From the NCBI GenBank assembly GCA_900498245.1, contig LS998015.1, positions 861,125-925,124 on the forward strand: a stretch of 64,000 bases of DNA, in the 5' to 3' direction. A program made the position numbers and the translations under genes. Under the pieces are notes generated by a model. That model was given only the letters and a program-made list of their open reading frames with translations, was not told where the DNA came from and did not search any database. Positions 18,560-30,252 of the stretch are shown here, piece by piece; position 1 is the first letter of the stretch, and the number at the start of each line of letters is the position of its first letter. This stretch comes from Candidatus Zixiibacteriota bacterium (GTDB lineage Bacteria > Zixibacteria > MSB-5A5 > GN15 > PGXB01).

Positions 18560-20368
18560 CTATTTCAAAAGACTCATCTTTTTGGTGACGCTCTTGTCAC
18601 CAGCGGTCATTTTGTAGAAATAAATGCCGCTGGCGACTCCGGCGCCGGCCTGATTAGTGCCATCCCATGTTACAGCATGAGATCCGGCTTCAAATTCGCC
18701 GTCAGCCAGAGTTTTCACCTTCTCACCAAGAATATTATAGACAGTGAGGTTGATTTTGGAATGCTCCGGCAGATAGAAGGAAATGGAGGTTCCGGGATTG
18801 AACGGATTGGGATAATTCTGGTAAAGGGCGAATTCCATCGGTATAGAATGAAGCGACATTTCTTTCGGGGCCGGCGTTCCGCCGATGGCCCGGCAGGCAT
18901 TCACTCTTCCGGTGCCAAGTTTCCCGGCATAGGTCGGATTCAAAACGTCAATATTGTCGGCCGTACTCTCCAGACGATTGTGGATATCGAGCCAGGAGTA
19001 TGAGGGGAACTGGGATTTGATCAGGGCGGCGACACCGGCGACCATCGGGGTAGCCATCGAGGTCCCGCTCATTACGGCATAATAGTCATTGGTCGGATCG
19101 CTGTAATTGTGATATGTACTGGCGATATCGACCCCGGGAGCGGAAACATCAACCCATGTTCCATAACTTGAGAAACTGGCCTTCAGGTCACTGCTGTCGG
19201 TCGCGGCGACATTAACGACATCGGTCCGAGTCCCAAGGTAATCAGCCGTTTCATTGTTGCTGTTTCCGGCGGCATGAACCACCAGCACCCCCTTGCTGAT
19301 AGCGTAGTCTATAGCCGCTCCCATGCCGCTGGTATTGGATGAGCCCCAACTGCAACTGGCGATATTGGCCCCCATATTGGCGGCATAATAAAAGGCCTGG
19401 GCGGCAAAATCCATTCGGACATATCCGGTTCCGCCGGATGACAGCCAGCCGATCCTGAGACACATCACCTTCGCGCCGTTTCCGACGGCGTTTATCGTGC
19501 CGTCGCCCCAGCCGCCGGCGGTTCCGGCCACCCCGCGGTTGTTATTGGTCATGGCCGCGACAATGCCGGCACAATGAGAGCCGTGCCCTCCGAAATCGGC
19601 CGGATCATTATCGGGAGTACTGCAATCTTCCCCTTTTTTGCATCCTTTGACTCCGGTAACCCAGTCCCAGCCCATCCAGTCATCAATAAAGCCATTGCCG
19701 TCGTCGTCGATACCATTGCCTTTTATTTCACCGGGGTTGATCCAGATGTTTCCGCTGGTGGTGGGCCAGGCGGCTCCCCCCAGGTCCTTATGGTAATAAC
19801 GAACACCGCCGTCAAGCACCGCCACCGTAACATTCGGATTGCCGGGATTTATGCCCCAGGCGCAGGGGCCGTCGATATCATTGTCGGTGTTGTCCGCGTA
19901 TCCCCATTGATACCAGGGATAGGCCTGTCCGGAAAAATAATAATCATTCGGGACGGCATCGTAGAAGGGATGAATGCCGATCGGTTCCACCGATTCCACC
20001 TGCGGACAAGCCGCATAGGCGCTGATTACTTCTTCCAGCGGACGGCTGCCGTTATAGGTCACAATTCTGTACCCGCTCAAATCCGGGGCGCCGGCCTCCG
20101 CTTGCGCGCCGGGGAATTCCTCTTCAATCGCCACAACCCCGAATCGCTGATTCAAAACATCGATATCGGGGAGGCCGGTTACGATATTTCCTTTGGCCGC
20201 AATCGGTATGCGTGAACTTGAAGTGCTCTTGAATTTTACTACAAACTGGTCGGGGACGTATTGAGTGCCGTCGGGTGTTCCCTCGAAAGGCACATAGATC
20301 GTGTTGTCCGCCATGACGGTGGCGGCAACCAAAAGTAATGAGATTAGAAGGGATAAAGCCTTCCTCAT
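18560..20368 (-). CDS. Secreted subtilisin-like serine protease with C-terminal sorting domain
   Basis: A 602-residue S8 peptidase. Signal peptide 1-20; an inhibitor-like propeptide about 35-135; the catalytic domain has Asp186 (VAVLDGG), His262 (GGHGSHCAG), oxyanion Asn369 and Ser437 (SGTSMATP). The last 90 residues start with ALYQNYPNPFNPGTSISFYLP and end KKMSLLK. This FlgD/Ig-like C-terminal module serves secretion or anchoring in FCB-group bacteria. The start is the ATG at 20368, six bases after GGAGG; a TTG two codons upstream is too close to it. It is divergent from the sigma-CHAT-subtilase operon and is a paralogue of that operon's protease: both share the phrase NADNID/TADNID...LNPxYAGxLG. 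Confidence 0.93.
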   Translation of the reverse strand: MRKALSLLISLLLVAATVMADNTIYVPFEGTPDGTQYVPDQFVVKFKSTSSSRIPIAAKGNIVTGLPDIDVLNQRFGVVAIEEEFPGAQAEAGAPDLSGYRIVTYNGSRPLEEVISAYAACPQVESVEPIGIHPFYDAVPNDYYFSGQAYPWYQWGYADNTDNDIDGPCAWGINPGNPNVTVAVLDGGVRYYHKDLGGAAWPTTSGNIWINPGEIKGNGIDDDGNGFIDDWMGWDWVTGVKGCKKGEDCSTPDNDPADFGGHGSHCAGIVAAMTNNNRGVAGTAGGWGDGTINAVGNGAKVMCLRIGWLSSGGTGYVRMDFAAQAFYYAANMGANIASCSWGSSNTSGMGAAIDYAISKGVLVVHAAGNSNNETADYLGTRTDVVNVAATDSSDLKASFSSYGTWVDVSAPGVDIASTYHNYSDPTNDYYAVMSGTSMATPMVAGVAALIKSQFPSYSWLDIHNRLESTADNIDVLNPTYAGKLGTGRVNACRAIGGTPAPKEMSLHSIPMEFALYQNYPNPFNPGTSISFYLPEHSKINLTVYNILGEKVKTLADGEFEAGSHAVTWDGTNQAGAGVASGIYFYKMTAGDKSVTKKMSLLK

Positions 20369-20817
20369 ACTCAACCTCCAAATAGTTAGCCATTACAAGG
20401 TCACTGTTGACAAGCATGAGAATTGATATTTGATATTCTGATACACCTCCTCTCGTCTAAAAATAAGACCGAACGACGCCATGGAGAATCGTCGCCCGGC
20501 CTTTCTCCTTCTACCCTGAGCGCATTGGGACCAATGATGGTTCCAAGCTGTTACCTCAAGAGCAACAGAGATGGTTCTCGTAGATTTCGTTCATCAATTT
20601 TCATATTTTTTTAAAATCGCCCATGTTTTCGCTGGACAAGGGGCCGATCGAAGTGAATAATGACTGAGATATGATGAGAATAGTCAGGATTCAACCGAAT
20701 TTCAGATGGGCGATTAATGATCAAAGGGAGAGCGCCTCAAACTGTAAGATAGACCATAGCATCATCGGAATATCTGTTTTTCAGACCGTGATACGAAATG
20801 AGAGATAAGGGCTTACT
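20369..20817. other. 449-base divergent intergenic region
   Basis: No gene is visible. It contains a perfect 10-bp inverted repeat (20615-20624 with 20706-20715, 81 bases apart). Near the right end is a GGAAT...CGTGATA arrangement that could be an ECF-type promoter. A TTGACA at 20406 lacks a matching -10. Confidence 0.6.
20767..20793 (+). promoter_or_regulatory. Candidate ECF-type promoter of the CHAT operon
   Basis: GGAAT (20767-20771) and CGTGATA (20787-20793) are 15 bases apart, close to the general ECF pattern (GGAAC, then CGTC). It would start transcription about 20 bases before the sigma ATG. Only one copy was found, so support is thin. Confidence 0.3.
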
Positions 20818-21390
20818 ATGAATGATTGCGAGCTCTGGCAAAAAATCATTGAAGGTGACAATGAGGCCTGGGCCCGGCTGATCCGCAAATATCAGTCTCT
20901 CGTTTATGCCGTTTCGACCCGGGCCGGCCTTTCCCTGTCTGATTGCGCCGATTGCTTTCAACAGACCTGGGTCATTCTTTTCAAAAATCGCCATCATATC
21001 AAGGACCCGGCTCGCCTTTCGGCCTGGCTGGTCACGACCGCCAAAAGAGAGGCCCTCCGACTGAGGCGCCGGGCGGAGCGATTCGAAGAGGATGCCGAGG
21101 ATTTTTCCCTGATATCCGAAGATCCCCTTCCGGATCGGGAAGTGGAGTTGTTGGAGTGTCAGGCGCAACTGGAAATAGCGCTGAAAGAAATTGACACCCG
21201 GTGCCGCAACGTCCTGAAAGCTTTTTTCTATGCACCCGAGGAAAAATCATATGATGAAATCGCCAAAGCCTTTGGAATTCCAGCCAATAGTCTTGGGCCG
21301 ATACGCCGCCGCTGCCTGGAACGCTTGAAACAAATACTACTAAAAACGGGGTATTTTGAAGAACGAAATGAGGGCAAGGAGCCTCTGTAG
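20818..21390 (+). CDS. ECF sigma factor heading the CHAT-subtilase operon
   Basis: A 190-residue ECF sigma factor. Region 2 runs from DNEAWARLIRKYQSLVYAV through DCADCFQQTWVILFKN (about 14-60). Region 4 holds the helix-turn-helix KSYDEIAKAFGIPANSLGPI (about 143-162). It is clearly different from the other sigma gene in the window. AAGGG precedes the ATG by about 7 bases. It sits two bases upstream of a zinc-finger protein gene and co-directional with the CHAT and subtilase genes. This suggests the sigma activates its own protease operon; that is inference from layout. Confidence 0.9.
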   Translation: MNDCELWQKIIEGDNEAWARLIRKYQSLVYAVSTRAGLSLSDCADCFQQTWVILFKNRHHIKDPARLSAWLVTTAKREALRLRRRAERFEEDAEDFSLISEDPLPDREVELLECQAQLEIALKEIDTRCRNVLKAFFYAPEEKSYDEIAKAFGIPANSLGPIRRRCLERLKQILLKTGYFEERNEGKEPL

Positions 21391-21392
21391 AT

Positions 21393-21980
21393 ATGAAAAC
21401 GAGAAAGAAAATGTTGGAAGGACATCTCAATAGAAAAGAGCTAATTGAGGTCGGTCGAAAACCTGAAAAGGAGCGGCCCCGGCATCTGTCTGAGTGCGAT
21501 GATTGCCGAATGGCCCTGGAATTTCTTATAAGGTTTCCGGTGGCCGGTCAGCTTCCTTTGGCCGACGCCCCGAGCGGATGGATTAATAAGGCCGTTGCTA
21601 TCGCGGAGCAAAAAAGAACGGCCGATATAATAACCGGGGTGCTGGCGAAATTGATATTTGATTCCTGGACAATGTCGGAGCCGGTGGGGGTCCGGGGGCA
21701 GGGGGCAATTGAACATCGCCGTCTAAGATACGAGGCCGCCGGAATTATTTTCGATATGCGGGCCGAGCAGGGGCCCGGGGAGTGGCATATGGTGGCCCGG
21801 GCCGAAGGTGCCATTAAGGCGGCGCCGGTTCTCCTGATTGGAAAAAATAGTCATTTCGCAAATGCGGATGGCCTTTATCAATGGTCGGCCAAAAGGCCGC
21901 CCCGAAATATCAGGCTGAAATCAGATGAGGGGATAATCAAATTTCCGGAGCTGTCGTGGAAGAAAACACGAAAGAAATAG
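21393..21980 (+). CDS. Probable zinc-finger anti-sigma factor with C-terminal sensory-like domain
   Basis: A 195-residue soluble protein. The first 40 residues carry His31-x3-Cys35-x2-Cys38 (HLSECDDC), the anti-sigma zinc-binding signature; the usual extra N-terminal Cys is absent. Residues 100-195 look like a small beta-sandwich (RRLRYEAAGIIFDMRAEQG, then GEWHMVARAEG); I do not recognise this family with certainty. No membrane helix is seen. Position between the sigma and CHAT genes supports an anti-sigma role. The 3' end overlaps the CHAT gene by 25 bases. The C-terminal part could be where a signal or the CHAT protease acts. Confidence 0.75.
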   Translation: MKTRKKMLEGHLNRKELIEVGRKPEKERPRHLSECDDCRMALEFLIRFPVAGQLPLADAPSGWINKAVAIAEQKRTADIITGVLAKLIFDSWTMSEPVGVRGQGAIEHRRLRYEAAGIIFDMRAEQGPGEWHMVARAEGAIKAAPVLLIGKNSHFANADGLYQWSAKRPPRNIRLKSDEGIIKFPELSWKKTRKK

Positions 21981-24685
21981 CCGCCCTCAAGTTTATCAGA
22001 ACGGGAAAAACATCCGCAGGTGATCTCGCCGAACTGGCGGCGAACTGCGATCGCCTGATTCAGAAGTCGATGCATCGTTCCCTCAAAGAGGCCCTGGTTC
22101 TGGCCCGTTCTTTGGCCCGGCATGCCGGAGACAGAAAAGAATTCGCTCTCACCGCCTATCGCGCTCTCGCCAGAGTCACGCACATGAGCGGTAAACATCG
22201 CGAGGCCCTGAAAGCCTATCTTCGGGCCCGCCAACTGGCATCGACCGATCCGATGATTCGCGCCCGCATCGATCGGGCCCTGATCGATGTCTATATGTAT
22301 ATCGGGGATTTCGGCAAGGCGCAAGATTGCGCCCGTCGTGCTATCGTGACTTTCAAGCGGCTCAAGTCGGATGCGGATCTGGCCCAGACGCGGGTCAATT
22401 TCGGCAACTTGCTGCATCGCCGCGATAAGCATCGCGATGCCGAGAGATTGTACCGTCAGGCGGCAGAGTATTTCGAGACCACCGAGAACGAGACCGCAAC
22501 AGCCCGCTGCTATTACAACCGGGCCAATACGCTGGTGCAGTTATTCGATTTCCCCGAGGCCGAGAGGCTTTATAAAAAAGCGCTCGAAATTAACAGCCGC
22601 GCCGGGTACTCACTCGAAGCCACCGATGCCCGCTATGGTCTGGCCTGGCTTCGGATGTTACAGGGGAAATTTCACGAGGCCCTGTTGGAACTCAATGTCT
22701 GCGAGAACTCTTTTCGGGAAGGCGGCGACCCCCGCGGTGAAGCGTTATGCATTCTTGACCGGGCCGAGGTTTATCTGGGGTTGGGATTGTACTCCGATGC
22801 CCTTAAAAGAGCCGGCGAAGCCATGCATCGTTTTGCCCGACTTCGCCTGCGCTATGAAAATGCCAAGGCGTCCCTTTTTAATGCCCAGGCGGCCTTCGCC
22901 ATTGGGATGAAATCCCGGGCCCGCAAATCAATGGCCGCTGCAATGAAGGAATTCGGGCGTGAAAAAAATGACGGCTTTCTCGGAGTGGTGCATTTATTGT
23001 CGGCCGATTTCGCCGGCCGGAGTACCACCGCGCGCCGGTATGAAATCAAGGCCGCCCGCGATTTATTCCGACGGACCCAATTACCCCTCTGGGAAGCGGT
23101 TTGTGATCTGAAGATGACTTCCGATGCCCAGACGGCGGCTGCGGCCTTTATCCGCCTAGCCAAAAATCCCGCTGCCGGTACCGTTCCCCATCTCTATACC
23201 GCCTGGCAAACCGCTCTCGGGGACCGCAAATTCCGCCAGGGGATTGACAGCGAAGCGATGCAACACTGGCGGCAGGCCGCAAGGCGCCTTGATTTGGTGC
23301 GGGCGCAACTGCCACCTTTGGAATTGCGGGGTGCCTACACGCGCCGTTTCAATTTGCCGCATCGACGTTTGATTGAAATAGAGATGACCAAAAGGCCGCG
23401 TGTCGCTGCTGTCTGGTCGGAACGGGAAAAAACGGCCGGACTCTGGGCCCCGATTGTTGCCGATGATTCCAATCCGCAGCGTCGAAAGGTCCGGGATAGT
23501 CTATCGAAACTGGCCGCAGAAATTACCGCGCTATCGGGACAATTATATGGCAAGTCCGGAGAAAGAAATCTCTCGCCTCTGACAGAGAGCAAGGCCCTTG
23601 CGGATATGCGCCGTCAATTTCGCGAGGAACTGCTAGAATTGGAAAAAATGCCTGAAAATCCTCGGCTTTCTGATGCGACAATGAGTGAGGAGATAGCTGC
23701 ACTTTCATATCGATTGCCCATCATTCAATTCCATTTGCAGGGAAACGAAATAATCGCCTTCGTCCATTCCGGTGGAAACAGTTACCTTCGTCGCTTCCGG
23801 GGCGGCCGGGATTATCTTGCCGATATGATGCGACGCTGGCACTTTATACTGGAAAATGAAGTCCTTGAGAAATTTCTCACCGGACATAGACCGCTTGAGG
23901 CTGAACGCCAAATTTGGACTGAATTGGGCGAGAAAATCTGGATTCCTCTGGAAGTACCGACCGATGCGGAAAAGATTCTTATAATCGCCCCTGGCGAACT
24001 CGCTAATTTGCCCTGGGGGGCGTTGGAAGTCGGCGATAGCCCGCTTTTTGAGCGGCATCACTTTATTCATTCTCCAAGCATAAGGCATTTTCTTGCGGCT
24101 GAGAAAAAGCGCAGTCTGTCCGGGGAGGTCATAGTTTTTCAGGGACGCAGTGATGACTTGCCCGCCTCGAGTCGGGAAATTGAATCACTTCTCGAAAGGA
24201 CGAGGGCGAATGACAATATCCATATGCCTTGCTACCGGGACGATTGGCCCAAAAGAGGACCGGCCCGTCTTTGGCATTATTCCGGGCACGCCGTTTTTTG
24301 CGCTGATAATCCTTTTTATTCCTACCTTGTACTTGAAGATGGCCCGATTTTTGCAGCCGATTTCAGGTTGAGAAACTGCGTGGTCGACCTGGTGACCCTG
24401 GCCGCTTGTCGTTCCGGTGAAGAAATTAACCTTCCCGGCGAAGAGTCTTCCGGATTTGTTCGTTCCTTACTCGAAATGGGGGCCCGAAATATAATTGCGA
24501 GTCGCTGGCCGGTATCCGATGAGACCACCGCCCTCTGGATGAAACTGTTTTATGATAGATTCTTTAATGGCGATACTATTCTGGATGCGATCCGTTATGC
24601 CGCGAGAAATGTCCGCGAAAGCCACCCCTCGGCGTATCATTGGGCGGCTTTTGCTCTCTCAGGCGCGGGCGATTTAGGAGGATGA
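21956..24685 (+). CDS. TPR-CHAT caspase-like protease
   Basis: A 909-residue cytoplasmic protein. About residues 40-430 are tandem TPR-like helical repeats (for example DAERLYRQAAEYFETTENE and EAERLYKKALEIN); the last 250 residues are a CHAT domain. The caspase-type dyad is intact: His778 in WHYSGHAVF and Cys818 in LAACRSGE. Further CHAT signatures are GFVRSLLEMGARNIIASRW and the closing HWAAFALSG. The GTG start at 21956 has GGAG eight bases upstream, inside the preceding gene. CHAT proteases are cysteine peptidases linked in several systems to regulated cleavage or cell death, with TPRs sensing a partner. Coupling to a sigma factor and a secreted subtilase suggests a signal-gated proteolytic pathway. 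Confidence 0.92.
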   Translation: MEENTKEIAALKFIRTGKTSAGDLAELAANCDRLIQKSMHRSLKEALVLARSLARHAGDRKEFALTAYRALARVTHMSGKHREALKAYLRARQLASTDPMIRARIDRALIDVYMYIGDFGKAQDCARRAIVTFKRLKSDADLAQTRVNFGNLLHRRDKHRDAERLYRQAAEYFETTENETATARCYYNRANTLVQLFDFPEAERLYKKALEINSRAGYSLEATDARYGLAWLRMLQGKFHEALLELNVCENSFREGGDPRGEALCILDRAEVYLGLGLYSDALKRAGEAMHRFARLRLRYENAKASLFNAQAAFAIGMKSRARKSMAAAMKEFGREKNDGFLGVVHLLSADFAGRSTTARRYEIKAARDLFRRTQLPLWEAVCDLKMTSDAQTAAAAFIRLAKNPAAGTVPHLYTAWQTALGDRKFRQGIDSEAMQHWRQAARRLDLVRAQLPPLELRGAYTRRFNLPHRRLIEIEMTKRPRVAAVWSEREKTAGLWAPIVADDSNPQRRKVRDSLSKLAAEITALSGQLYGKSGERNLSPLTESKALADMRRQFREELLELEKMPENPRLSDATMSEEIAALSYRLPIIQFHLQGNEIIAFVHSGGNSYLRRFRGGRDYLADMMRRWHFILENEVLEKFLTGHRPLEAERQIWTELGEKIWIPLEVPTDAEKILIIAPGELANLPWGALEVGDSPLFERHHFIHSPSIRHFLAAEKKRSLSGEVIVFQGRSDDLPASSREIESLLERTRANDNIHMPCYRDDWPKRGPARLWHYSGHAVFCADNPFYSYLVLEDGPIFAADFRLRNCVVDLVTLAACRSGEEINLPGEESSGFVRSLLEMGARNIIASRWPVSDETTALWMKLFYDRFFNGDTILDAIRYAARNVRESHPSAYHWAAFALSGAGDLGG

Positions 24686-24689
24686 GTTT

Positions 24690-26096
24690 ATGTTTAAGTC
24701 GAAATATTTATTTATTTTTCTCGCAATCCTCACAATGCTGAGTTTGTTATCCCCGCCCTCATTCGGCCAGAAGCGTCCGGCCGGATTTAAGCCCGATGAA
24801 CTGGTCTGCAAAATGCAGCCCGGCTACAGTATCGATATCATCAATTCCGAATATGGAACTCAGACCAAAAGCCATCAGCTCCAGACCAATTGCTATCTTT
24901 TGCTTATTATGCAGGGGCATGATGCCGAAAGTCTGGCCACAATTATAGATGCCCGCCCCGAAGTGGTCTATTGTTGTCCCAATTATATTCTATCGGCGCC
25001 CGAGCCATATCAGAGAAGCGAACCCTTTTTGGATGTACAGTATATCGGTTCCGTGGAATTGCAGACGGCCGCGGTATCTCTTGATCTCAATACGGCACAC
25101 GCGATTTCCGAAGGGAGTAATGTCCGGGTGGCGGTGATCGATTGCGGTGTTAATTACCTTCACCCGCAATTTCTTACCATGCCGGGGAGCGTTGTTTCCC
25201 GCTGGGACTACATTGATAATGACTCTGTGGCCATGGACGAGCCGGGGGGAAGCGCCTCCGGTCACGGGACCTTTGTCGCCGGGATAATTGAACTCGTCGC
25301 TCCCCAATCCGATATTTTTGTCTATCGCGTTCTGGATACGGCGGGTATGGGCGACGGATACAGTATTGCCGAAGCAATACTTAAGGCGGTGGATGACAGT
25401 TGCCGGGTAATCAATCTCAGTTTGGGGATGATCGGCGTTCATGATGATCTGGATGATGCCATTCGATACGCGCGCGACAATGAAGTTCTGGTGGTTGCCG
25501 CCGCCGGCAATGATTCCACCGACAGCAATCTTATTTTCCCGTTCCCCGCTTCGCGGGAATATTGTCTGGCCGTGGCGGCAGTCGATTCGATAAATCTTAA
25601 AGCCGATTTCTCCAATTACGGGGATAAAGTGGACGTCTGCGCCCCCGGAACCAGGATTTATGCCCCATTCCTCGACACCAGTTATGCCTGGTGGGATGGA
25701 ACCAGTTTTTCCACCGCTTTTGTGTCCGGGGCAGCTGGGCTCATTCGGTCTATTCGGCCCGATTTGACTCTGGGAGGATTGGACAGCCTGATTCTGGATA
25801 ATGCCGACAATATCGACACGCTAAACCCGGATTATGCCGGACTGCTGGGTGTCGGAACGATTAATATTGTCCGGGCCCTGACCGCGGCGACCCAGTCACT
25901 TATCCGAGGCGATATAAATGTCGATCAGGCCGTCAACATTCTGGATATTTCGTATTTGATTGAGTTCCTCTACAGAGACGGTCCGGAACCATTGATATAT
26001 GAAAACGCCGATGTCAATGACAATCAGGTGTTGAATATTTTGGATGTCGCCTATCTGGTCAACTTTTTATATAAAAGCGGTCCGGCTCCAAAATAG
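24690..26096 (+). CDS. Secreted subtilisin-like serine protease with dockerin-like repeats
   Basis: A 468-residue S8 peptidase. Signal peptide 1-26; short propeptide region; Asp151 (VAVIDCG), His192 (SGHGTFVAG), oxyanion Asn274 (AAGND) and Ser339 (DGTSFSTA). Residues 405-465 are two dockerin-like calcium loops (GDINVDQAVNILDISYLIEF and DVNDNQVLNILDVAYLVNFL), common at the ends of secreted proteins in Zixibacteria-like genomes. GGAGG overlaps the end of the CHAT gene four bases upstream, so the two are co-expressed. The protease is exported while the CHAT protease is cytosolic, so they are unlikely to meet before secretion unless the cell lyses. Confidence 0.92.
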   Translation: MFKSKYLFIFLAILTMLSLLSPPSFGQKRPAGFKPDELVCKMQPGYSIDIINSEYGTQTKSHQLQTNCYLLLIMQGHDAESLATIIDARPEVVYCCPNYILSAPEPYQRSEPFLDVQYIGSVELQTAAVSLDLNTAHAISEGSNVRVAVIDCGVNYLHPQFLTMPGSVVSRWDYIDNDSVAMDEPGGSASGHGTFVAGIIELVAPQSDIFVYRVLDTAGMGDGYSIAEAILKAVDDSCRVINLSLGMIGVHDDLDDAIRYARDNEVLVVAAAGNDSTDSNLIFPFPASREYCLAVAAVDSINLKADFSNYGDKVDVCAPGTRIYAPFLDTSYAWWDGTSFSTAFVSGAAGLIRSIRPDLTLGGLDSLILDNADNIDTLNPDYAGLLGVGTINIVRALTAATQSLIRGDINVDQAVNILDISYLIEFLYRDGPEPLIYENADVNDNQVLNILDVAYLVNFLYKSGPAPK

Positions 26097-26367: not shown

Positions 26368-27351
26368 ATGAAACGTTTTTGGACCGTCTTCGGATTATTG
26401 ACCCTTGCGGCCATGATCGCCGTAATCGGCGGCTGCTCGCGCGATAACGTGGCCGGGCCGACCGGCAGTTTTGCCGACAATACCGGCTGGGTGATCCCCT
26501 CTCTGGTGGCTTCTCCGGGCGATTCGGTGCAGTTCACGGCCCGCGTGAGAACGATGGATCAGAACCGCCTGATGCTGACCTTTATGGGCTTGAGCGATAC
26601 CGTTATCGCCACCCACAATTGCGAAATAGTTCGCCTCAATAACACGGGCGAAACGCCCATACCGTTCTCCGATATTCATAATGGCGATTCCCTCAAAATT
26701 AATGGCGTCAAACAGCAGAATCAGTACATTCTGGCGTACAAAATTCAGAATTGCACGGGAGACTGCTACAAATATGATCTGGCCTTCCGCGACACCATCA
26801 TCTCGATCGATTATGATGCCATGACCTTTACCGTGGCCAATCGCACCGAGGTCATAACGGTCGATGAAAACACCGAAATCTGGGGAAATATCGTCCATCA
26901 ATACGGCTATGACAATCGGGTCAACGGCGATACTCCGCCGAGCGGCGGAGCCGGAAAATTGATCTATCAGTATCAGTTCATGTCTTCTTCGCGTGATACC
27001 ACGCTGACTTTTGCCGACCTGACTATCGGGGATGTGGTCGAGGTGAAGGCCGATATCGTTGACGAGAGTACTCTTCTCGCGGTTAAAATAAAAGTCGCCA
27101 ACTGCCTCGATCAGGAACCGCAGTGCACGCAGTTTACCGCTCCTCTGGCGAGCGTCGACGTCGATGGCAAAATCGTGACGTGGGAAGGAAACAGCTGGAT
27201 CGGGTTGGTCTGCAAAGGGAGCCAGCTATTGGCCGCCGATGGGACCGAATTGACCCTGGCCGATTTTGCGGTGGGAGAAAATGTCGCTGTCAAGGGGCTT
27301 CCACTGACCGGCGATACGTTGAAAGTCTGCAAGATGCAGAAGGTTGATTGA
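26368..27351 (+). CDS. DUF5666-repeat lipoprotein
   Basis: A 327-residue lipoprotein: the signal peptide ends in the lipobox IGGC-S. The rest is three repeats of a small beta-barrel fold of DUF5666 type, roughly 45-135, 140-250 and 255-325. Each repeat has the order 'modified metal-like strand, then FADLxxGDxVxVKA, then AxKIxV' (for example LTFADLTIGDVVEVKADIVD). DUF5666 proteins are of unknown function, often periplasmic. The ATG at 26368 is chosen for GGAGG nine bases upstream and the lipoprotein signal; a longer frame begins at 26245 but lacks both. Confidence 0.85.
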   Translation: MKRFWTVFGLLTLAAMIAVIGGCSRDNVAGPTGSFADNTGWVIPSLVASPGDSVQFTARVRTMDQNRLMLTFMGLSDTVIATHNCEIVRLNNTGETPIPFSDIHNGDSLKINGVKQQNQYILAYKIQNCTGDCYKYDLAFRDTIISIDYDAMTFTVANRTEVITVDENTEIWGNIVHQYGYDNRVNGDTPPSGGAGKLIYQYQFMSSSRDTTLTFADLTIGDVVEVKADIVDESTLLAVKIKVANCLDQEPQCTQFTAPLASVDVDGKIVTWEGNSWIGLVCKGSQLLAADGTELTLADFAVGENVAVKGLPLTGDTLKVCKMQKVD

Positions 27352-27565: not shown

Positions 27566-27638
27566 TAGCGGTACGGGGAATCGAACCCCGGTTTGATGGC
27601 TGAGAACCACCCGTCCTGGGCCACTAGACGATACCGCC
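27566..27638 (-). tRNA. tRNA-Glu (anticodon CTC)
   Basis: On the minus strand a 73-base cloverleaf folds: acceptor GGCGGTA with TACCGCT, a D-arm with TCGTCTAGTGGCC as in other tRNA-Glu, anticodon loop TTCTCAG (anticodon CTC) and T-arm GGGGTTCGATTCCCC. The 3' CCA is not encoded. Five T residues follow the 3' end. Confidence 0.95.
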
Positions 27639-27756: not shown

Positions 27757-30252
27757 GTGCCCAATAAATCTTCTGAACTCAAAGCCAAAGATCTCACTCC
27801 CCGGATAGATTTCAAAAAATTGAATATCTCGTCGTCCAAAGACGCCGAGCCCTGTTGCAGTGTTATCGGTCAGGAGCGGGCGGTCAAAGCCATCCGCCTC
27901 GGTCTTAAGATCCACAGCCGCGGTTATAATATTTTTGTCACCGGGCTGACCGGAACGGGACGATCCACCACCATCAAGCAACTTCTCGAGGAACTCGATC
28001 ATTTCAAGCCGGATCTTCAGGATGTCTGCTATGTCAACAATTTTCAGTCTCCCGATTCCCCGATAGCCCTGATTTTCAAAGCGGGCGAGGGGCGGGTCTT
28101 CAAGCGCGATGTCGAGTACATGATCGCCAGTCTGCGCAAGTCGATTCCCAAAGTCTTCATGAGCCAGGATTACAAAGCGAAACGAAGCGCCATCGCCTCG
28201 GATTTCGGGGATCGCCAGAAAAAATTTATCAACGATTTCGAGAAGAAGATGTCCGACGAGGGCTTTGTCATGGTCCAATTGCAGGTCGGCCTGGGAGTTC
28301 ATAACGAACTCCAGCCCCTGGTCGATAATGAGCCGGTTTCGGTGGGAAAACTCGAGCAGTTGGTGAAGGAAGGAAAATTCGCGGCCCAGAAACTGGAGGA
28401 AATCGAGCAGAAACTGGAACGTCTCAAACGGGAAATGTCGGTGGTTGAAATCGAGTCGAAAAAACTAGCGATGAAAATGGAAGAGGCCCTGGAGAAACTG
28501 GATCAATCGATTATTTCTCCTCTCATCATAGACAAAATCGATGTTCTTAAAAAGAAATTCCCGGACAAGAAGGTCGTCGGCTATCTCGATCAAGCAGCGG
28601 CCACACTCCTCGGGGAACTGGATCGTTTCCGCGAAGCCACCCCGCGGCGGGGCGAAGAGGAGGCGCCGCCGTTCCGCAAGAGAGAACCGTTCGAAGAGTT
28701 CACCATTAATCTCATCCTTGACAATTCCGAGACGCAAAAAACGCCGGTTATCGTGGAGCATTCCCCGTCGTACCGCAATCTTTTCGGAAGCACCGAACGA
28801 GTGGTCGACAGGTACGGTTACTGGCGGACCGATTTTTCCCGGATTCGGGCCGGCTCGCTTCTCAAGGCCTCGGGGGGATTTCTTGTCCTCCACGCCATGG
28901 ATCTGTTCACCGAGGTCGGGGTCTGGCAGCCATTGAAACGGGCCCTTATGACCGGACTTCTGGAGATCGGCAGTTTTGATCCTTTCTATATGATGGCCGG
29001 TTCGGGGCTGAAGCCGGAGCCGCTTCCGATCAAATTGAAAGTGGTTCTTATAGGCGAGCGGCGCATCTATAACGCCCTTCTCGAACTCGAAGAGGATTTC
29101 AAGAAAATTTTCAAAATCAAGGCGGAATTCGATTCGCAGATGAAAATGGATGATACCGCCCTGCGGCAGTACGTCTCTTTCGTGCGCAAGATTACCGAGG
29201 AAGACAGCCTCCCGGCGTTCGACAATTCCGCTCTCGAAGCGATTGCCGCGCAGGGGAGCCGTCTGGCGGGGCGCAAGGATCGAATCTCGACCCGGTTCAC
29301 CAATATCGCCGATTTGATCCGCGAGGCGGCACTGGTCGCCGGGGAAGCGAAACATAAAATGGTCAAAGCCGGAGATGTCATACAGGCGATCCGCCAGGGA
29401 CAGGAGCGGGTCAATCTGATTGAGGATCGGATTCAGGAAATGTATGACAATGACCTCCTTTTGATTTCGACGACCGGCAAGGCGGTCGGGCAGATTAACG
29501 GCCTTTCGGTTTTCGATACCGGCGAGTACGCGTTCGGGCGTCCCACCCGTCTGACCGTCAGCGTCTCGGTCGGCCGCGCTGGGGTGATAAATATTGAGCG
29601 CGAGGCGGAACTCTCCGGGCCGATTCATAACAAAGGGGTGCTGGTTTTGAGCGGTTATCTGCGGGGCAAATTCGCCAAGAGCAAACCGCTCGTGATGTCG
29701 GCGTCGATCTGTTTCGAGCAGTCTTATTCGGGGGTCGACGGTGACTCGGCCTCGTCGACCGAAATCTACGCTATCCTTTCGGCCCTTGCCGGCCTTCCGA
29801 TCGATCAGGGGATCGCGGTCACCGGCTCGGTCAACCAGTTGGGACTGATACAGCCGATCGGCGGGGTGAATGAAAAAATCGAAGGATTTTTCGCGGTCTG
29901 CAAGGCCAAGGGACTGACCGGCAAGCAGGGGGTTGTCATACCGGTACAGAACGTGGCCGATTTGCACCTTAAGGATGAAGTCGTACAGGCGGTGGAGAAG
30001 GGGAAATTTCATATCTATCCGGCGACGACCATTGACGAAGGCATCCAAATCCTGACCGGCAAGCCGGCCGGGAAGGACCTTCCCAAGGGCGGCTTCACTG
30101 CTGGCTCGGTGTTCGATCTGGTCGATAAGGCGCTCGACAAGATGGCCAAGGAGTTTAAAGAGAGCGAACAGCGCGGCAACGATAATAATAAAAAGGCCGC
30201 CAAGAAGAAAGCTCCCGAACCGCCCAAAAAACGGAAGCCGAAAAGGAAATAG
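27757..30252 (+). CDS. LonB-like ATP-dependent serine protease
   Basis: An 831-residue protease of the AAA_32/LonB group. The P-loop near residue 65 reads TGLTGTGRST, with Arg in place of the usual Lys, as in many members of this subgroup. A coiled-coil stretch (about 205-250) follows, then the AAA remainder. The C-terminal Lon protease domain has the catalytic Ser in GVDGDSASS and the Lys in IGGVNEKIEG. The C-terminus is a short Lys-rich tail. The start is GTG with GGAGG seven bases upstream. It is expected to degrade damaged proteins. It is monocistronic. Confidence 0.92.
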   Translation: MPNKSSELKAKDLTPRIDFKKLNISSSKDAEPCCSVIGQERAVKAIRLGLKIHSRGYNIFVTGLTGTGRSTTIKQLLEELDHFKPDLQDVCYVNNFQSPDSPIALIFKAGEGRVFKRDVEYMIASLRKSIPKVFMSQDYKAKRSAIASDFGDRQKKFINDFEKKMSDEGFVMVQLQVGLGVHNELQPLVDNEPVSVGKLEQLVKEGKFAAQKLEEIEQKLERLKREMSVVEIESKKLAMKMEEALEKLDQSIISPLIIDKIDVLKKKFPDKKVVGYLDQAAATLLGELDRFREATPRRGEEEAPPFRKREPFEEFTINLILDNSETQKTPVIVEHSPSYRNLFGSTERVVDRYGYWRTDFSRIRAGSLLKASGGFLVLHAMDLFTEVGVWQPLKRALMTGLLEIGSFDPFYMMAGSGLKPEPLPIKLKVVLIGERRIYNALLELEEDFKKIFKIKAEFDSQMKMDDTALRQYVSFVRKITEEDSLPAFDNSALEAIAAQGSRLAGRKDRISTRFTNIADLIREAALVAGEAKHKMVKAGDVIQAIRQGQERVNLIEDRIQEMYDNDLLLISTTGKAVGQINGLSVFDTGEYAFGRPTRLTVSVSVGRAGVINIEREAELSGPIHNKGVLVLSGYLRGKFAKSKPLVMSASICFEQSYSGVDGDSASSTEIYAILSALAGLPIDQGIAVTGSVNQLGLIQPIGGVNEKIEGFFAVCKAKGLTGKQGVVIPVQNVADLHLKDEVVQAVEKGKFHIYPATTIDEGIQILTGKPAGKDLPKGGFTAGSVFDLVDKALDKMAKEFKESEQRGNDNNKKAAKKKAPEPPKKRKPKRK

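Follow-up and report, generated by a model that had tools for sequence, protein, structure and literature searches.

Control of ECF sigma factors through the proteolysis of their inhibitors is well established for membrane anti-sigmas such as RseA and RsiW, which are cut by membrane proteases to free the sigma factor. Soluble and CRISPR-linked versions of this logic are known as well: in type III-E CRISPR systems the ECF factor CASP-sigma is inhibited by Csx30, which Csx29 cleaves (PMC10028731), and the type III CRISPR system CalpL/CalpT/CalpS joins a Lon protease, an anti-sigma and an ECF sigma (PMC11417357). In Myxococcus xanthus, the ECF factor DdvS has DdvA as its anti-sigma (PMC4374960). 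The principle is therefore not new, and the statement of the initial annotation that no characterised system has exactly the parts described below holds for the exact set, while the underlying logic has precedents in Csx29/Csx30/CASP-sigma, CalpL/T/S and DdvA; no paper describing the four-gene set was found in the literature searched, which covered few subscription journals.

The window, i.e., the whole stretch of 64,000 nucleotides analyzed here, is contained in a complete 3.5-Mb genome (Candidatus Zixiibacteriota relatives). Four ORFs, encoding an ECF sigma factor, an anti-sigma-like protein (hereafter anti), a TPR-CHAT protein and a subtilase, are packed on the forward strand at 20818-26096, as originally described, with 2 nt between the sigma and anti genes, an overlap of 25 nt between the anti and CHAT genes, and 4 nt between the CHAT and subtilase genes (Table 1). 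They form a real and conserved module whose members are probably co-regulated.

Table 1. Coordinates of the operon, its domains and sites, and the adjacent lipoprotein gene, in window positions.
Feature	Position	Strand	Evidence
ECF sigma factor, 190 aa (sigma2 + sigma4)	20818..21390	+	TIGR02937, Sigma70_r2; directly upstream of anti (50/50 loci)
Anti-sigma-like protein (anti), 195 aa, soluble, without membrane segment	21393..21980	+	zf-HC2, RsiW
ZAS-like motif H31-x3-C35-x2-C38 (HLSECDDC) of anti	21483..21506	+	Pattern scan
C-terminal beta-sandwich domain of anti, residues 82-189	21636..21959	+	AlphaFold2, pLDDT mostly >90
Loop FDSW...VGVR...RRL of anti, residues 88-111, candidate docking/cleavage segment	21654..21725	+	
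TPR-CHAT protease (predicted activity), 909 aa, GTG start, without signal peptide or membrane segment	21956..24685	+	
TPR solenoid with conserved polar groove, residues 61-352	22136..23011	+	AlphaFold2 helices
Catalytic His778 (predicted)	24287..24289	+	WHYSGH; invariant 41/41
Catalytic Cys818 (predicted)	24407..24409	+	LAAC; invariant 38/38
Subtilase, 468 aa, predicted exported, signal peptide, triad D151/H192/S339	24690..26096	+	Peptidase_S8
Dockerin-like C-terminal domain of subtilase	25908..26069	+	Dockerin_1 2.2e-6
DUF5666-type lipoprotein	26368..27351	+	DUF5666 2.6e-8

A search with the anti protein gave matches in 31 of 117 genomes, and a profile search in 40 of the 132 genomes of the phylum (E <= 1e-3), a count that includes a few of the weakest matches taken on E-value alone. 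The operon could be assigned to 50 distinct loci (counted in one set only, duplicate loci of the same genome being excluded), 37 belonging to subfamily A, that of the window, and 13 to a very divergent subfamily B. Each of the 50 has the sigma gene directly upstream of anti; on the downstream side, anti is adjoined by the CHAT gene in every A locus with room for it and in 12 of the 13 B loci; and a subtilase is present in 39 of 39 evaluable loci (27/27 A, 12/12 B), i.e., those on a contig long enough for a subtilase call. The search for this gene order across genomes, set as a test in the initial annotation, thus shows that the arrangement is not unique, and with 50 separate loci in the phylum its recurrence is beyond chance. 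In the thirteenth B locus (L134, 8835-12985) the CHAT gene lies beside sigma and is divergent from the sigma-anti-subtilase genes. One locus (L070) that appeared to lack the subtilase was rejected as an exception, since the assembly has a run of N at the end of its CHAT gene. Two complete subfamily B operons stand in tandem at L137 (6934-18221), and one genome (G011) carries one A unit and three B units.

The single scan of genome contigs gave only Zixibacteria-like loci; two of these, labelled Calditrichaeota (L099) and Ignavibacterium (L090) in public records, are of Zixibacteria type and coincide with contigs of genomes assigned to the phylum (G054 and G006, respectively), and their labels are probably wrong. 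Relatives were found neither in plasmids nor in viral contigs, and among PADLOC defence families only generic TPR and subtilase matches were obtained; with no specific defence family and no mobile context, an assignment to anti-phage defence is not made.

Mean identities between the two subfamilies are only 26% for sigma, 17% for anti, 22% for CHAT and 30% for subtilase, and the A and B anti profiles are homologous (hhalign E 2.7e-15). Within subfamily A, pairwise distances correlate at r 0.80-0.83 among sigma, anti and CHAT, as opposed to r 0.48-0.59 between the subtilase and these three, every correlation exceeding those of 500 permutations (0/500). This pattern indicates a tighter core of sigma, anti and CHAT, with the subtilase as the more variable part; such correlations are also expected when a linked operon is inherited vertically, so co-divergence is no proof of contact.

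The identification of the sigma factor as ECF agrees with its matches to TIGR02937 (sigma70-ECF, 1.6e-24) and Pfam Sigma70_r2 (6.6e-11), together with a weak region 4 match, and with the presence of sigma2 and sigma4 only, which places it in the ECF family. Over 50 regions upstream of sigma no ECF promoter motif was enriched, the sole enriched word being TATATT, a -10-like element (15 observed, 4.5 expected). Autoregulation and target control are consequently unsupported, and control of the subtilase by sigma, as expected in the initial annotation, is suggested by gene order only.

The anti protein of the window has by itself no Pfam match, and zf-HC2 is the family most frequently matched among anti members of both subfamilies, the best E-values being 0.0051 (A) and 5.2e-7 (B). 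When the subfamily A profile was compared with the PDB, the sole match was RsiW, weak (E 0.37) and with the ZAS motif in register. A pattern scan recovered H-x3-C-x2-C in 28 of 37 A loci, the nine without it including two (L051 and L059) that were missed through the choice of ORF start; the motif is absent from subfamily B, where the N-terminus nevertheless remains a zf-HC2 match (up to 5.2e-7). The zinc ligands have been lost throughout B and in part of the A members. No member has a hydrophobic or membrane segment. Taken together, the zf-HC2 and RsiW matches strengthen the original proposal of a zinc-finger anti-sigma, and anti is likely a sigma inhibitor of zf-HC2 type.

In the AlphaFold2 model of anti, N-terminal helices are followed by a beta domain that is well predicted over residues 82-183 and gave no confident or significant match among PDB folds and, in subfamily B, shows weak similarity to CarboxypepD_reg. 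Within this domain, D90, R101 and R109 are 100% conserved across both subfamilies despite the 17% overall identity, and they lie shortly behind the N-terminal domain, in a loop predicted with lower confidence (pLDDT 73-74). With the zinc ligands lost in places and these three residues invariant, the C-terminal segment is the most constrained part of the protein. The solubility of anti has two consequences: regulated intramembrane proteolysis of the RseA/RsiW kind does not apply, and any cleavage would require a cytosolic protease, since the exported subtilase cannot reach it.

The TPR-CHAT protein has TPRs and a strong CHAT match (Pfam PF12770, 5.5e-32, 111.8 bits for a cut-off of 24), and the His778/Cys818 dyad, found intact as annotated, is invariant in 41 of 41 and 38 of 38 sequences, respectively, counting only those that reach each position. 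Its AlphaFold2 model (pLDDT 85.8) is closest in the PDB to separases and Csx29 by Foldseek, with E-values down to 3e-13 and TM-scores of only ~0.3-0.5, whereas a CHAT-domain profile built from both subfamilies retrieves TPR-CHAT/Csx29 (5.5e-10 to 6e-5), DdvA (5.1e-8) and, weakly, separase, making Csx29 and DdvA the nearest solved relatives of the domain. The DdvA CHAT region aligns His and Cys at the dyad positions. A-helices of TPRs line the concave groove, and of the helical polar residues with >=95% conservation across A and B every one (10/10) sits on them, a pattern suggesting that a ligand or partner is bound there. The genome has only one other CHAT protein (970 aa; L152, 5623-8535; G000:C1, ~372 kb), beside which no sigma or anti gene of this family lies.

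The helical-repeat, pseudo-caspase and caspase architecture is shared with separase, the eukaryotic cohesin protease. Cleavage after arginine, as in separase, was considered because D855 first seemed a suitable pocket residue, and was dropped: both the offset from the catalytic Cys and the alignments place A859 at the position of separase D2151. The residue of the P1-Arg pocket is thus apparently not conserved, and with a non-acidic residue at this position the invariant arginines of anti cannot be claimed as the cut site.

The subtilase is, as initially annotated, an exported enzyme with an intact triad, as judged from its Pfam Peptidase_S8 match (3.5e-37), an N-terminal hydrophobic segment predicted as a secretion signal, and the invariance of D151, H192 and S339 in 25 aligned subtilases. 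The Pfam search also revealed a dockerin-like domain that had not been recorded before. Across loci the enzyme takes two forms, one short (~470 aa) with dockerin, the other long (1000-1700 aa) and carrying TSP3 repeats or T9SS-type tails. The dockerin-encoding 3' end (25908-26096) has several relatives at the DNA level around the chromosome (L002-L008), suggesting from similarity that many dockerin-tailed proteins are encoded in this genome.

The adjacent DUF5666-type lipoprotein has homologs close to the operon in around a dozen loci of subfamily A, some with two copies, and it is possibly a fifth member or a target of the operon. A second subtilase gene with a T9SS-type tail (18560-20374, reverse strand) is divergent from the operon, and such a subtilase also neighbours the operon in seven further loci (L039, L040, L041, L043, L046, L047 and L051); it may be a co-regulated target. 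Downstream of the operon lie a tRNA gene (27566-27638, reverse strand) and a gene for a LonB/LonC-like ATP-dependent protease (27757-30252).

Among known systems there is a close likeness to CASP/Craspase, as the ECF sigma is encoded together with a Csx29-related TPR-CHAT protein and with a soluble inhibitor of its own (here predicted) that has two domains. However, type III RAMP/Cas7-11 proteins are absent from the genome of the window and from 14 of 16 operon-bearing genomes tested, and no CRISPR array-like direct repeats were seen in the window between 16000 and 30500. Anti matches Csx30 neither by profile among PDB chains nor by fold, and the two differ in size and composition, Csx30 having 565 aa and anti 195 aa with a zf-HC2/ASD-type part and an unrelated beta domain; moreover, an exported subtilase is attached here in every evaluable locus. 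The operon would therefore resemble CASP in its working without being a member, given that neither a RAMP-type (Cas7-11) effector nor a Csx30-type inhibitor was found. With CalpL/T/S it would share the protease - anti-sigma - ECF sigma logic, although the protease there is a SAVED-Lon protein activated by cA4, as opposed to a TPR and CHAT protein here, with neither SAVED nor CRISPR. DdvS/DdvA likewise consists of an ECF sigma whose anti-sigma system includes a CHAT region, but DdvA is one transmembrane chain (title of PDB 8rot/8rw5), whereas anti and TPR-CHAT are separate, soluble and accompanied by a subtilase. Proteolysis of the anti-sigma to free an ECF sigma, finally, would be common to this operon and RseA/RsiW.

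The presence of an ECF sigma, a soluble candidate inhibitor and a protease related to Csx29 in a genome without RAMP proteins, and with no array seen around the operon, leads us to propose that these genes form a proteolytic sigma switch that is CRISPR-free and has the exported subtilase among its outputs, a reading to which we give an even chance. In the resting cell, soluble anti would hold the sigma factor through its N-terminal zf-HC2/ASD-type helices, as expected from its family, while its beta domain would dock on TPR-CHAT by the FDSW-GVR-RRL loop. A signal from within the cell, received by the TPR region or the N-terminus, would then activate the CHAT protease, as target RNA does for Csx29, the His778/Cys818 dyad would cut anti, and the freed sigma could drive a programme including the co-transcribed subtilase and probably the neighbouring lipoprotein.

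These observations may be read in other ways. Anti could itself sense the signal through its beta domain, with TPR-CHAT and the subtilase being outputs of sigma, i.e., a stress-induced pair of cytosolic and exported proteases that have other substrates and may serve defence or controlled death. Effector roles are known for CHAT proteases, both proteases are encoded downstream of the regulator pair, and the C-terminal domain of anti is indeed distinct and conserved, with residues that never vary. Yet the divergence of TPR-CHAT follows that of anti and sigma (r ~0.8) far more closely than the divergence of the subtilase does, the CHAT gene starts within the anti gene, and in the nearest characterised cases CHAT either acts on an anti-sigma protein or is part of one; the generic PADLOC matches and the absence from viral contigs and plasmids speak against the defence part. 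We consider this account rather unlikely.

More doubtful still is control of anti by TPR-CHAT through binding only (partner switching or co-inhibition), the protease serving turnover or another substrate. The polar groove, conserved across both subfamilies and only on the TPR A-helices, fits such a role, as does DdvA, where by analogy the CHAT region within the anti-sigma chain could have a non-catalytic sensing role, but a pure scaffold would not need the dyad, which is invariant. Very improbable, finally, is a secreted-protease operon of the ordinary kind, linked to an ECF regulator pair and with CHAT as an unrelated passenger: exported subtilases with dockerin or T9SS-like tails are common secreted enzymes and the genome has several ECF sigmas, but CHAT adjoins the regulator genes wherever there is room for it, which holds in both of the very divergent subfamilies, and its co-divergence with sigma and anti is closer than that of the subtilase. 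Overall, the initial interpretation of the locus as a regulated protease system is partly supported.

The proteolytic sigma switch can be extended, tentatively and with a good deal less confidence than we give the switch itself, to a stand-alone, CRISPR-free mode of signalling from caspase to anti-sigma, ECF sigma and secreted subtilase that is widespread in Zixibacteria and represents the kind of module from which the type III-E CASP system was recruited, the TPR groove reading an internal ligand instead of target RNA. Craspase has been treated as a CRISPR-specific link between a caspase-like protease and a sigma factor inhibitor. If the conserved CRISPR-free unit does follow this logic, caspase-type control of ECF sigma factors would be a general mode of bacterial signalling, the unit would be a plausible source of the CRISPR version, and the operon would provide a small, reconstitutable system for asking what TPR-CHAT proteases sense.
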